Source: a virus
Reading direction: 5' to 3' (one strand)
DNA: 64,000 bases
Virus record (IMG/VR): IMGVR_UViG_3300008954_000020
Span: 38,579-102,578 of that record
Shown: one piece after another, positions 1,580 through 61,200 of the stretch
Layout: every line of letters starts with the position of its first letter
Numbering within the stretch: position 1 is the stretch's first letter
The notes under the pieces: generated by a model
What the model was told of the DNA's origin: nothing
The model's database searches: none
Seen by the model: only the letters and a program-made list of their open reading frames with translations
Made by a program: the position numbers and the translations under genes

Positions 1580-2413
1580 TCAAACAAACTCCTGAATGTT
1601 TTCCATAAGGTTCCGCAATCGTTTTTCAATAAAGTAAGAAAGGATTTTACTTCCATCAGTTTCGGTAGTTTTATTGAACTGAGAGAGTACTTCTTCTTCT
1701 ATGTAGGAGGGAATCATATTAAGATTAATCATCCTATTATTTCTATCATAGTTTCTATTTTCTGTCCACTTATGTAATTCTTCTCGAATCATTTCTGCCT
1801 TTTTATTTCCACATCCCGTTTGTCGTTTTCCTTCTGTCACGAACACATCATCATCTGAAAGGATGTTGGGTATACCATCTGATGCATCACCCTTTATGAT
1901 ATGGTCTACAAGAAATCGTTCGGGGTCACTACAAACCAAAAACGATTTCTTCAACGGACTGTATTGTTTAACATTAGGATATCGCTGTAATTGTTGAAAA
2001 TCTTTGTCGTTTGAAACGATAACAATATTTTCTTGCAGATGATATTGTTTTGCAAGGATACCAATAATGTCATCTGCTTCTGCTCTGTCCACTGTGATGT
2101 TTTTGAATGGAAATATTTCTTCTACTTCTTCACGAATCGTATTCAAACATTTATAAATTACATTCCAGTCAAACTTAGATTCTTTTTGGTCTTTCCTGCG
2201 ACTAGCTTTATAGTGTGGGAATATATCTCTTCGCCAACAATGCGGAGAGTCGTTTGCAATTACAAGTTCGCCATACTTATTCTTGAATTTATTTCGATAC
2301 ATTCGATATGTGTTCAATACTAAATGCCTAAGAATATCTTCATCAACTTCTCCATTACGAATGGTTGTAAAAATAGCTGCTAAAATAATTTGGTTGTTAT
2401 CAATAATAATCAT
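1580..2413 (-). CDS. rnh: RNase H / 5'-3' flap exonuclease
   Basis: A FEN-1/T4 RNase H family metal-dependent nuclease that removes RNA primers and flaps from lagging-strand fragments. It has 277 residues (T4: 305). The acidic metal-binding motifs are all present: VIANDSPHCWRR near residue 52, DRAEADDIIG near 110, VSNDKDFQQLQ near 135 and KGDASDGIPN near 172. The gene overlaps the stop of the upstream unknown gene by 4 bases (ATGA), so translation is coupled. It lies between gp46 and gp45, whereas T4 rnh lies near gene 32. Confidence 0.88.
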   Translation of the reverse strand: MIIIDNNQIILAAIFTTIRNGEVDEDILRHLVLNTYRMYRNKFKNKYGELVIANDSPHCWRRDIFPHYKASRRKDQKESKFDWNVIYKCLNTIREEVEEIFPFKNITVDRAEADDIIGILAKQYHLQENIVIVSNDKDFQQLQRYPNVKQYSPLKKSFLVCSDPERFLVDHIIKGDASDGIPNILSDDDVFVTEGKRQTGCGNKKAEMIREELHKWTENRNYDRNNRMINLNMIPSYIEEEVLSQFNKTTETDGSKILSYFIEKRLRNLMENIQEFV

Positions 2414-2814
2414 TTCTTTTTCTTCTTTAGTTTTTTCTTGCCTCGTTGAACAGCATCATGAAAACATTTTAGTTTTTGGTCTGCGTGGCTTCGCATCCAA
2501 TTGCGGTCTTCTTTGTTGCCATTCGATTGCATCCAAAAAGCCAGTTCTATTAGAAATTCACTTCCTTCAACATATTTTCCATTAAAGAAAACTCGTACCC
2601 GAAGGTCTTTCCCCCGTTCAAAAAATGGATAGTCTTCTTTGGGTGCTAGTTTATATGTACGAATTGAAAATTTCGAAGAGATAATTTCCAGACCGGCTTT
2701 CATATACTTCTCGTAAGATAATGATGTCTTAGGAGAAACTCCACTCGTCCACTCTCGTTCAACCTTTTTTGATTGAACTTTCTTTTTGGTCTTTTTCTTG
2801 GTTTTGTTTTTCAT
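2410..2814 (-). CDS. Conserved-looking unknown protein between gp46 and rnh
   Basis: A 134-residue basic protein. Lys-rich tails at both ends (KKKTKKK at the N-terminus, GKKKLKKKKK at the C-terminus) flank a globular middle containing YEKYMKAGLEII, RVRVFFNGKYVEG and a cluster with NWMRSHADQKL. I do not recognise it. It overlaps gp46 and rnh by 4 bases each, so it belongs to the same recombination/replication transcript. The basic tails would suit a DNA-binding accessory, which is inference from composition. Confidence 0.6.
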   Translation of the reverse strand: MKNKTKKKTKKKVQSKKVEREWTSGVSPKTSLSYEKYMKAGLEIISSKFSIRTYKLAPKEDYPFFERGKDLRVRVFFNGKYVEGSEFLIELAFWMQSNGNKEDRNWMRSHADQKLKCFHDAVQRGKKKLKKKKK

Positions 2815-4532
2815 AACATTTTGCTGAAATTATTTTGTTTTTCAAAGGTCATTTGGTTTGGAAATTTATCAGCCAATTGATCTGATTTGTGGCTGATTAC
2901 GAATATATTACATCTTTGACTTAAAGAATGTATCAATTTTAAAAATTCTTCTGTACCAAAAGCATCGAGCGACGAATCAAATACTTCATCAAGAATTAAA
3001 AGATTTGTATTTGCACTATTCTTTAATCTAGCAATTTCTCGCCATGACAAAAGAAGTGATAAATCAATTCTCATTTTTTCTCCTTCGCTAAATGACATGT
3101 AACTAAAATCGTCACGGTGTCTGCTCTTGATGGTTTCATTGAATTCTTCGTCTAATGTAAATTGAGCAAAGAAGTCCATTGAAGCCAAATATTTGTTGAT
3201 GAGTTTATTCATCATAGGAAGATAGTGTTTAATGATTTTTGATTTGATACCGCCATCCTTTAACAACGAAGTGGCAATATCATAATAATACAAATCTTCA
3301 ATTCGTTCTTTCTTTTCTTCCTGTTGTATATTCATATTTTGTTTGTAGGTTGTGAGTTTTTCAGTTTCACTTTTGATTTGGTCTTGGTCTTTTTTAATCA
3401 GTTCAGTTTGTTCTACTAATTTTTCCATATACCCAACGGCTGCACTAACCCACCCATTCTTAGAAGAAATGTCATCTTCCAATGCAGTAATTTCAGAAAG
3501 TTTGTTGTCTACTGTAATGGAATGTTCTTGTATTTCTTCGTAATGAACAGCAAGTTCTTCCATTGCATTTTCAATTTCAACCAACTTATCTTTCTTCCGT
3601 TCAACAGTTTTAATTACATTGGTATTTGATTCATCAATATCTTGTGTACAGGTGGGACAAACTTCATTCATTTCAAAGAATAAAATGCCCTCTTCGGCTT
3701 TTCTTTTATTTGATCCTAGTTGTTTCTTTAGAACTTCAACCCTTCGAATCTTTGATTGTAAATCACCATACGATTTTATTTCTTTTCGTTTGTGGTCTGA
3801 TGTTAATCTCAAGTCTTCGATTTTGGTTTGATGGTTTTTAATTTTCTTCTTGGTTTCTAATATTTCTTTTTCGTTTTCTGCGGAACTTTGTTCTGATTTC
3901 TTAGATACATTTTCGATATGAGATTCTAGTATTTCGATTTTTTCTTTTAGAACTTCGATGTTAAATATAATCTCTCTGTGTTCTTCTCGACAAGTTGATA
4001 TGTGGGTTTTAAGAATCGTATTCATATCAGAAAAGATATTGATATCCAGAATATCTTCAATAACTCCACGCCGGTCTGATGTACTTAATTGCATAAAAGG
4101 AACAAAGGACGAACTACCTAAAATCACAACTTGTGTAAAAGACTTATAATTCATTTTTAGAATTTGGTCTTCCAACATTCGCTGATAATCTTTTGTCTTG
4201 GCATTTTGGTCGAATAATTCCCCGTTTCGATAAATTTCAAATTTCTTGGGTTTTATACCTCTGATAATTTTATATGAATCATCACCAATTTCAAACTCTA
4301 CTTCCACCCACAAGTTTTTCTTGTTTATACTGTTAACCAATTGCGGAATATTAATTTTTCGAAATGGTTTTCCAAATAACCCAAAGGTGATAGAATCTAA
4401 TAATGCAAAAGATTTTCCATGACCGTTATTCCCTGATACAAGAGTCATAGAATGTCGGTCTAATTGTATTTCTGTAACAGCGTTTCCGAATGAACCAAAG
4501 TTTCGGAAACGAACTTTCTTAAAATTTATCAC
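2811..4532 (-). CDS. gp46: Recombination endonuclease subunit gp46 (Rad50-like)
   Basis: An SMC/Rad50-type ATPase that with gp47 resects DNA ends for recombination-dependent replication and degrades host DNA. It has 573 residues (T4: 560). Visible are Walker A GNNGHGKS at 34-41, a long coiled coil broken by the zinc hook CPTC at about 292-295, the ABC signature MSFSEGEKMRID near 480 and Walker B LLILDEVFD near 512. The start is GTG (4530-4532), overlapping the gp47 stop as GTGA, so it is translated by coupling to gp47. Confidence 0.93.
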   Translation of the reverse strand: MINFKKVRFRNFGSFGNAVTEIQLDRHSMTLVSGNNGHGKSFALLDSITFGLFGKPFRKINIPQLVNSINKKNLWVEVEFEIGDDSYKIIRGIKPKKFEIYRNGELFDQNAKTKDYQRMLEDQILKMNYKSFTQVVILGSSSFVPFMQLSTSDRRGVIEDILDINIFSDMNTILKTHISTCREEHREIIFNIEVLKEKIEILESHIENVSKKSEQSSAENEKEILETKKKIKNHQTKIEDLRLTSDHKRKEIKSYGDLQSKIRRVEVLKKQLGSNKRKAEEGILFFEMNEVCPTCTQDIDESNTNVIKTVERKKDKLVEIENAMEELAVHYEEIQEHSITVDNKLSEITALEDDISSKNGWVSAAVGYMEKLVEQTELIKKDQDQIKSETEKLTTYKQNMNIQQEEKKERIEDLYYYDIATSLLKDGGIKSKIIKHYLPMMNKLINKYLASMDFFAQFTLDEEFNETIKSRHRDDFSYMSFSEGEKMRIDLSLLLSWREIARLKNSANTNLLILDEVFDSSLDAFGTEEFLKLIHSLSQRCNIFVISHKSDQLADKFPNQMTFEKQNNFSKML

Positions 4533-9393: not shown

Positions 9394-9421
9394 ATTATAC
9401 CACAAAAAAGTGGAATGTCAA
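9394..9421 (-). promoter_or_regulatory. Full-consensus early promoter of uvsY
   Basis: Minus strand: TTGACA (9416-9421), 16-bp spacer, TATAAT (9394-9399), with TGG before the -10. Both hexamers match consensus exactly. The promoter is squeezed between the stop of the tube-like gene (9422) and the uvsY ATG (9387). Confidence 0.9.
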
Positions 9422-59650: not shown

Positions 59651-59674
59651 AACCCCCCGCCGAAGCAGGGGGTT
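59651..59674. terminator. Bidirectional terminator between tape measure and porin
   Basis: The stem pairs 59651-59660 with 59665-59674 around a CGAA loop, with one C-A mismatch and a run of C:G pairs. A T-run follows on both strands (CTTTTTT on plus, TTTTTT on minus). It separates two convergent genes. Confidence 0.85.
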
Positions 59675-59698: not shown

Positions 59699-60841
59699 TC
59701 AGAATTGAATCTGAAGTTGGGTACGAACGAGGTACTCGCCTTCGGCGGCACTTGCATTCCATCCCGTGCTGGCAACATCCCAACCCGCATCAATATCATT
59801 CATGGCATAACCGACATCGGTTGTCCACTTAACATTGGGGTTGACCATGTAGTTGACACCTACAGTTGCGACACTAAGGTCTGCTGTAGCGCCTTCCAAC
59901 CTGCCAAATTCATATGCAACGAAACCCTGAAGGTTATCCATGCACTGATAAGAAACAGTAAGGGTAGTTGCCCAGTCATCTCCCGCATCACGGTTTACAC
60001 CGACATATGCAGCAGTGAGGTCAAGAGCACCCCAATTGACGCCAGTATCTACAGTATAAGTTGTGTAGTTACTGTCTACAAGGTCATTCCACGAAACCGC
60101 AGCACCAAGATTCCACCAAGAGGTGACATCATAATCTGCTCGTGCAGTAAGGGCATATCCATTCTGGATGCCGGCACCGTTTGCGGTGTCGAATCCATCA
60201 GTGTATGCACCACGAAGCGTAAGTGCTCCGAAGTCCTTACCGAATTGGATACCTTGTGACCGGCCTTGGCCGAAGGTATACGAAACAATTGACCTATCAG
60301 CGGCAAGTGTATCAGTTCGTGATACAAGAACTTCCTTCATGAAGGGAGCCTTGAACTGACCAAACTGGAAGTCAAGACCACCAATTTCACCAGTACCATA
60401 AGCGTCCTTCAATTCGAAGTCACCACCATCGCTCCATTGACCACTTACTCTATAACCGAAGTCATAGACATCACCACTAAGGATGAGTCGTGAGCGAGGA
60501 ACACTGAAACCATGATTGGCATCGGTATCTCCACCACCACTGTAGTCGAAACGAGTCTGTACAAATCCGTGTACATTAACCGTTACAGGGCTTCCGTTGC
60601 CCTGAAAACTAGCACGATTGTCTGCATCAGCAAGAACATCGTGAACAAGTTGACGAGTCGCTTCGGCTCGTTCGTTGTTCAACCAGTTATCACTATCCGA
60701 TGCAGATAGTTCTGCAATCCGTGCTTCGGCTGCTTCAAGTCGTTCTTGAAGTTCCGCATTGGTGTCAGCACCAGCAACACCAGTGCAGATTCCTGCAAAT
60801 AGTGCTACGAGAGCCACCTTTGTAAGTTTTGAGATATTCAT
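59699..60841 (-). CDS. Outer-membrane porin, OprO/OprP-like
   Basis: 380 residues. A Sec signal peptide (residues 1-25, hydrophobic VALVALFAGICTGVAG then A|D) is followed by a short coiled coil (about 27-47), a linker WLNNERAEATRQLVHDVLADA (53-73) and a beta-barrel ending in Phe. The blocks FSVPRSRLILSGDVYDFGYRV, FELKDAYGTGEIGGLDFQFGQFKAPF and GRSQGIQFGKDF match the OprO/OprP (phosphate-selective) porin pattern. It should form a channel in the host outer membrane during infection. The gene is richer in G+C (31 of 60 bases at 59761-59820), has AAAGGAG and shares an early-type promoter with a small membrane peptide. It is unusual for a T4-like phage and looks host-derived. Confidence 0.82.
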   Translation of the reverse strand: MNISKLTKVALVALFAGICTGVAGADTNAELQERLEAAEARIAELSASDSDNWLNNERAEATRQLVHDVLADADNRASFQGNGSPVTVNVHGFVQTRFDYSGGGDTDANHGFSVPRSRLILSGDVYDFGYRVSGQWSDGGDFELKDAYGTGEIGGLDFQFGQFKAPFMKEVLVSRTDTLAADRSIVSYTFGQGRSQGIQFGKDFGALTLRGAYTDGFDTANGAGIQNGYALTARADYDVTSWWNLGAAVSWNDLVDSNYTTYTVDTGVNWGALDLTAAYVGVNRDAGDDWATTLTVSYQCMDNLQGFVAYEFGRLEGATADLSVATVGVNYMVNPNVKWTTDVGYAMNDIDAGWDVASTGWNASAAEGEYLVRTQLQIQF

Positions 60842-60869: not shown

Positions 60870-61043
60870 TCAAACGCTAGCGACAAGGTTCCAAAGTTCA
60901 CGAACTGCTCCACCGAGCCAAGTAACACCGTTCCACGCAAATGGAAGAAGTGCCAATGTGATTAGCATACTACGGCACACACCGACCTTACCTAACGCAT
61001 TTGTCACGACATCTGTGCCGCAACTATCTGTACATTTAGCCAT
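60870..61043 (-). CDS. 57-residue membrane peptide upstream of the porin
   Basis: The peptide starts MAKCTDSCGTDVVTN, has three Cys (4, 8, 23) and one hydrophobic segment from about residue 26 to 46 (MLITLALLPFAWNGVTWLGGA), and ends REL-WNLVASV. The ATG at 61043 has a strong AAAAAAGGAG. The stop is 28 bases before the porin start, so the two form an operon. I do not recognise it. It may be a small inner-membrane protein; the Cys pair CxxxC could form a disulfide or bind metal (inference). A leader of four hairpins precedes it. Confidence 0.7.
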   Translation of the reverse strand: MAKCTDSCGTDVVTNALGKVGVCRSMLITLALLPFAWNGVTWLGGAVRELWNLVASV

Positions 61044-61069
61044 TGTATTTCTCCTTTTTTAGAAATAAT

Positions 61070-61150
61070 CCTCTGGCAAAAGAGGTTGGTGCGTTTTTGC
61101 ACCGTGAAGTCAACTCCGACTTCGTTAGTTTATGTCACTTATTTAGTGAC
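61070..61150 (-). promoter_or_regulatory. Structured 5' leader with four consecutive hairpins
   Basis: On the minus strand, reading toward the peptide gene: GTCACT/AGTGAC (61134-61150, 5-base loop), GAAGTC/GACTTC (61106-61123, 6-base loop), GGTGC/GCACC (61088-61103, 6-base loop) and CCTCT/AGAGG (61070-61085, 6-base loop). All arms pair perfectly. The ribosome site lies just after the last hairpin. No T-run follows any stem. Confidence 0.7.
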
Positions 61151-61158
61151 TTTTAAAA

Positions 61159-61200
61159 ATTGACACCCCACATTATACACCTAATATGCGGGGTGTCAAT
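61159..61200 (-). terminator. Palindromic terminator of gp32 overlapping a promoter
   Basis: Perfect 11-bp arms (61159-61169 and 61190-61200) with a 20-base loop, followed on the minus strand by TTTTAAAA. It lies 18 bases after the gp32 stop. The -35 and -10 boxes of the porin-operon promoter are inside the same structure. Confidence 0.65.
61172..61199 (-). promoter_or_regulatory. Full-consensus early promoter of the peptide-porin operon
   Basis: Minus strand: TTGACA (61194-61199), 16-bp spacer, TATAAT (61172-61177), expected start near 61165. Because the site is palindromic, the plus strand also has TTGACA (61160-61165), 16 bp and TAATAT (61182-61187), pointing into gp32 antisense. Confidence 0.85.

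Follow-up and report, generated by a model that had tools for sequence, protein, structure and literature searches.

Why would a phage with a T4-type gene set carry a gene for an outer-membrane porin? The question arises from the window, a 64,000-nucleotide stretch of viral DNA, in which a porin ORF (P0001) runs intact from ATG to stop with its bounds exactly at 59699-60841. The window encodes gp23, gp22, gp20 (portal), gp18 (sheath), gp17 (terminase), gp32 and a late-transcription coactivator, which bears out the original prediction, made from the sequence alone, that it belongs to a T4-like phage. The gp23 proteins of the nearest named phages are ~56% identical to that of the window, and the window lineage is therefore without a close relative in the named-phage collection. 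Seven close relatives of the porin were found in a first search of IMG/VR, and 74 contigs encoding relatives, at 37-100% identity, in a search with a seven-sequence alignment. T4-type gp23 was present in all four larger porin-bearing related records (75-157 kb) and partially in a 47-kb record; searched for gp32 besides gp23, the related records proved to be T4-like. The median dN/dS of the viral porins is 0.16, indicating purifying selection, which together with the 74 contigs shows that the ORF did not arise by chance. The region 59699-60841 is thus confirmed as a real, conserved gene, and the features around it are collected in Table 1.

Table 1. Features of the porin locus, in positions of the window.
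Feature	Position	Strand	Basis
Phage porin gene, 380 aa	59699..60841	minus	ORF, viral relatives (n=74), 16-strand model, top PDB match OprP
Putative signal peptide, residues 1-25	60767..60841	minus	Inferred, read from sequence
N-terminal periplasmic module, residues 23-83 (coiled coil and LVHDVLADAD motif), 73% identical to Phycisphaerales porin	60593..60775	minus	
Barrel, residues 86-380, 16 strands, Phe at end	59702..60586	minus	Model, Foldseek, loop alignment
Constriction loop L3 (residues 165-193), 29 residues long in both the phage and the bacterial homologues	60263..60349	minus	Model, alignment
Small helical membrane protein, 57 aa, first gene of the cassette	60870..61043	minus	Conserved position, low-confidence helical model
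Structured 5' leader RNA, three covarying hairpins, then ribosome-binding site	61046..61153	minus	Covariation
Consensus sigma-70 promoter, TTGACA-N16-TATAAT	61172..61199	minus	Perfect match
Probable bidirectional terminator between porin and tape-measure genes	59651..59674	.	GC hairpin between A and T runs, by eye

The original prediction described a complete gene with a signal peptide, a coiled coil, barrel motifs and a terminal Phe, and the ORF, its sequence features and the predicted structure agree with this description. Read by eye from the sequence, the protein begins with a typical signal peptide (MNISKLTKVALVALFAGICTGVAGA, with the break before D), followed by a helical N-terminal region, and ends in Phe. 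The AlphaFold2 model, predicted as a single chain from a 51-sequence alignment (mean pLDDT 81, pTM 0.70), contains two helices (residues 29-47 and 52-77) and then 16 strands (86-379), with residues 1-27 at low confidence. OprP (2o4v) tops the Foldseek ranking of this model (E 7.7e-14, TM 0.63), so that the structural check proposed earlier returned a 16-stranded barrel with OprP as its best PDB match and neither a fibre nor an enzyme fold. In the alignment, the strands and periplasmic turns are nearly free of gaps, and length variation and indels are almost confined to the predicted extracellular loops, which supports the barrel topology independently of the model.

Searched alone, the window porin gave no convincing Pfam, PHROG, NCBIfam or PDB family match and no match in the named-phage collection, and a plasmid search returned just one weak Sphingobium porin (E 0.9); single-sequence searches (Pfam, PHROGs, PDB, named phages) are therefore uninformative for this protein, and alignments were required. 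The profile of the viral porin family matches OprP with an E-value of 6e-6. Against Pfam Porin_O_P (PF07396, curated cutoff 20.9 bits), the window porin has no match, two viral porins score 39.7 (L056) and 35.1 bits (L073), and planctomycete homologues score 31-59 bits; the predicted structure has the 16-stranded barrel and internal constriction loop of this family. The Porin_O_P identity holds at the superfamily level. Of the OprO/OprP-type porin originally proposed, the superfamily stands by profile, relatives and fold, and the phosphate-selective features of OprP/OprO do not.

Among 84,980 species scanned, the confirmed relatives with a phylum in their record title were nearly all from Planctomycetota, with the best in Phycisphaerales. 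A porin match at E<=1e-15 was found in 113 of 151 Phycisphaerales genomes, a Planctomycetota-wide sample gave mostly weaker matches, and Myxococcota matches reached 45 bits at most. In a tree including host porins, as the original prediction had suggested building, 39 viral porins form a single clade (SH-aLRT 99) beside Phycisphaerales-type porins; the tree was built by a quick method and has several long branches. The N-terminal module of the window porin is 73% identical to a Phycisphaerales porin, and that of the relative L072 80%, against ~30% for the barrel; at the DNA level the module is 71-84% identical to bacterial genomes over 80-178 bp. When the final 20 kb of this stretch was compared with 400 genomes of the order, significant matches lay solely in the porin, at 60593-60777 (the N-terminal module); this search could have caught CRISPR-spacer matches and gave no spacer-type host evidence. 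The N-terminal similarity, coming from one gene family, appears to point to a Phycisphaerales host or to exchange with one, and a Phycisphaerales-like planctomycete is, on that gene family, the probable host. A covariance-model search did not find the leader RNA in 101 genomes of the order (weak evidence), and the 57-aa protein gave only noise in the genomes of the order; accordingly, of the cassette, only the porin looks host-derived. The module has been lost or shortened in several viral porins (L044:1719-2762, L056:3229-4263 and L064:4570-5592), suggesting that the phages can dispense with it or exchange it. It is also absent from the viral porins that diverge most (L073:6058-7005 and L074:4989-5969, ~40% identity), of which the one in L074 directly follows gp23.

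The outer face of the barrel differs from that of the bacterial homologues in loop length. Compared with planctomycete medians, the window porin has 5 vs 13 residues in L1, 6 vs 12 in L2, 4 vs 16 in L5, 2 vs 9 in L6 and 7 vs 16 in L7, whereas L3 has 29 vs 29 and the strands and turns are likewise unshortened. With the exterior loops short and L3 constant, the pore is retained and the exterior reduced. Genome economy could be an alternative cause of the short loops.

The porin is the second gene of a cassette in which a sigma-70 promoter, a structured leader RNA and the 57-aa gene come before it. The early-type promoter of the original prediction is present as a perfect TTGACA-N16-TATAAT (61199-61172, minus strand); of 50 distinct upstream regions, 25 have a perfect copy of this motif and 37 a copy with at most one mismatch. 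These regions show no enrichment of the T4 late motif. The window has one other exact copy, at 9394-9421 on the minus strand. Within the leader, 9 of the 15 pairs show two-sided changes, and 99.6% of the cells are paired, compared with 92.4% in shuffled alignments (none of 500 as high, a count that is not a probability because the leader sequences are related) and 34-46% in slid controls. A search of 75 sources with its covariance model gave 53 matches, which lie at the cassette, and 11 of 12 records have a single copy of the RNA. Rfam contained no match at threshold. Membership of the freshwater-2 RNA family (RF02980) was rejected, as the scores of 17.4-25.8 bits fall below the gathering score of 49.9, with full-length sub-threshold matches in four leaders, that of the window and three others. 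A riboswitch-like switch, in which the 5' end would pair with the last of the hairpins, was not supported (-6.4 kcal/mol for the own pairs and -6.1 kcal/mol for the swapped pairs, with 67 of 500 as low). The leader is a candidate new cis-regulatory RNA family.

The 57-aa protein is predicted, by a low-confidence model, to be helical with a hydrophobic segment. In most loci its gene immediately precedes the porin; L066/L067 and several loci of greater divergence have the two genes in the opposite order. Relatives occur in 161 viral stretches, and the protein is also found in other phages in which no porin was detected. In six of the latter (L191, L198, L203, L205, L217 and L229, at about 2300-3200), where no porin was detected near it, it adjoins a 130-aa lipobox transmembrane protein, and several of this group add a 67-77 aa coiled-coil/transmembrane protein, weakly XhlA-like. 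In L219, L227 and L238 (about 3176-4016), it is followed by a shorter protein of 257-279 aa whose start resembles a signal peptide and whose last residue is Phe, perhaps a different small barrel, for which no convincing Pfam family match was obtained in L227 and L238. The hairpin downstream of the porin (Table 1) was not reported by the terminator scanner, probably because its loop is above the limit of the scanner.

The genes flanking the porin differ from those of the window in most related loci, suggesting that the location of the cassette varies from phage to phage. Phage L016 shows near-synteny to the window, and the identity drop between the two coincides with the porin ORF: dS is ~0.27 for gp32, 0.25 for the tape measure and 0.08 for the small gene, and 1.47 for the porin. 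The L016 porin is 91% identical to that of L010, a phage whose gp32 is just 61% identical to that of the window. Since the L016 porin has diverged from that of the window yet is close to that of L010, porin alleles have been swapped between phage lineages; these comparisons indicate exchange of the porin while the flanks stayed, under the purifying selection described above.

Several explanations have to be weighed. Because bacteria commonly have porins, the gene might be ascribed to bacterial contamination or a chimeric contig, or the product might be a structural (fibre) protein; however, the relatives on 74 contigs with the small gene in front in most, gp23 in all four larger records, a viral clade apart from bacteria, and the signal peptide and predicted barrel fold make such readings scarcely credible. 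We take the porin to be a candidate auxiliary metabolic gene, host-derived and kept under purifying selection, whose signal peptide and fold argue that it is non-structural. A phosphate-selective uptake gene working like OprP/OprO, a role raised in the original prediction, would fit the shared superfamily and the two of the eight OprP phosphate-site residues (R34, Y62, D94, K121, S124, S125, K126 and R133; PMC5877670) that have clear counterparts in the profile alignment, S124 as S174 and R133 as R183. However, R34, Y62, K121, S125 and K126 are replaced by F93, R118, V171, R175 and T176, D94 pairs with K145 (D146 adjoins), and the Arg-ladder segment (R218, R220, R222 and R226) lies in an OprP insertion that has no counterpart in the phage protein. 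The barrel contains 36 D/E and 17 K/R, and the whole protein 24 K+R compared with 47 in OprP/OprO. With the site residues mostly missing, the ladder absent and the barrel acidic, phosphate selectivity was rejected and such a gene is very unlikely; the acidity may stem from marine adaptation rather than pore selectivity.

The explanation we consider best, with about an even chance of being right, is that the phage makes a substitute porin with trimmed loops early on, and with it maintains or alters the permeability of the outer membrane during infection. Host RNA polymerase would transcribe the cassette early in infection, and the porin would be exported by the Sec and BAM machineries, dock via the N-terminal periplasmic module shared with host porins, and form a non-specific channel, probably not phosphate-selective. 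As host gene expression falls, it could sustain or raise the influx of small nutrients, and its trimmed outer loops would offer fewer handles to competing phages. The main rival, possible though clearly less probable, is superinfection exclusion, in which the early loop-trimmed porin would replace or dilute host porins, the putative receptors, and the small protein would block DNA entry at the inner membrane. T4 Imm blocks DNA entry at the inner membrane. On the one hand, the consensus early-type promoter, the shortened outer loops, the predicted helical membrane protein that usually precedes the porin, and the swapping of porin alleles between retained flanks, as competition between phages would predict, all fit this reading. 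On the other hand, purifying selection keeps the constriction loop and the geometry of the pore, features that a decoy could do without, and the small protein also occurs in other phages in which no porin was detected. Exclusion may act jointly with nutrient influx. A module for lysis or envelope remodelling, in which the small protein would be a holin-like partner, would accord with the loci in which this protein follows the hemolysin XhlA-like protein and the lipobox protein; it is nevertheless improbable, in that the XhlA similarity is weak (E 0.006), the promoter is of early and not late type, and the barrel is a porin, neither a spanin nor an endolysin. Returning to the substitute porin, the possession of a porin gene of their own, preceded by a strong host-type promoter and a leader RNA that folds, suggests that these phages probably rebuild the outer surface of the infected cell. 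More tentatively, lytic T4-like phages of Phycisphaerales might early in infection swap host porins for loop-trimmed ones, keeping nutrients flowing and removing the docking sites of rivals, with an undescribed leader RNA controlling a two-protein module of the inner and outer membranes.

These results suggest that some T4-like phages rebuild the host outer membrane, beyond metabolism alone, with the shortened loops as a testable mark of selection at the cell surface. They also give a genetic handle on phages of Planctomycetota, on which a literature search found almost nothing. Phage porins themselves have precedents. Lambdoid prophages, which are temperate coliphages, carry the outer-membrane porins Lc and NmpC of the OmpC/OmpF family, expressed by the lysogen, and these resemble the window porin in being phage-borne porins of the outer membrane. 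Among metagenomic phages, the fold is also shared by the BFVD entry A0A8S5S2G8 (Siphoviridae sp. ctBLh2, recorded as a siphovirus) and by OmpC-like proteins of uncultured Caudovirales, at 10-15% identity. Marine viral contigs carry an OmpL porin with glnK-amtB as an accessory gene in a host-derived operon (PMC8115048), which differs from the window porin in being Bacteroidetes-type and part of an ammonium-uptake operon. The earlier statement that no porin is known in lytic T4-like phages agrees with the empty named-phage search, with the qualification that other viruses do have porins. Within the reach of our searches, the novel elements are the occurrence in a T4-like lineage, the origin from planctomycetes, the trimmed loops, the cassette and its leader RNA. 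OprP/OprO of Pseudomonas (PF07396) share with the phage porin the superfamily by profile, the 16 strands and an N-terminal periplasmic extension, but identity is ~15%, and the phage porin differs from them in lacking the Arg ladder and most phosphate-site residues, in its acidic barrel and in a different N-terminal module. The Phycisphaerales Porin_O_P porins are homologous over the full length, with the same N-terminal module and equal L3 length; they are mostly longer (400-513 aa in the compared set), chiefly through their extracellular loops and a 15-residue insert, and unlike the phage cassette, the genomes searched yielded neither the small protein nor the leader RNA. The leader itself resembles freshwater-2 RNA (RF02980) in its three hairpins followed by a ribosome-binding site and a start codon.
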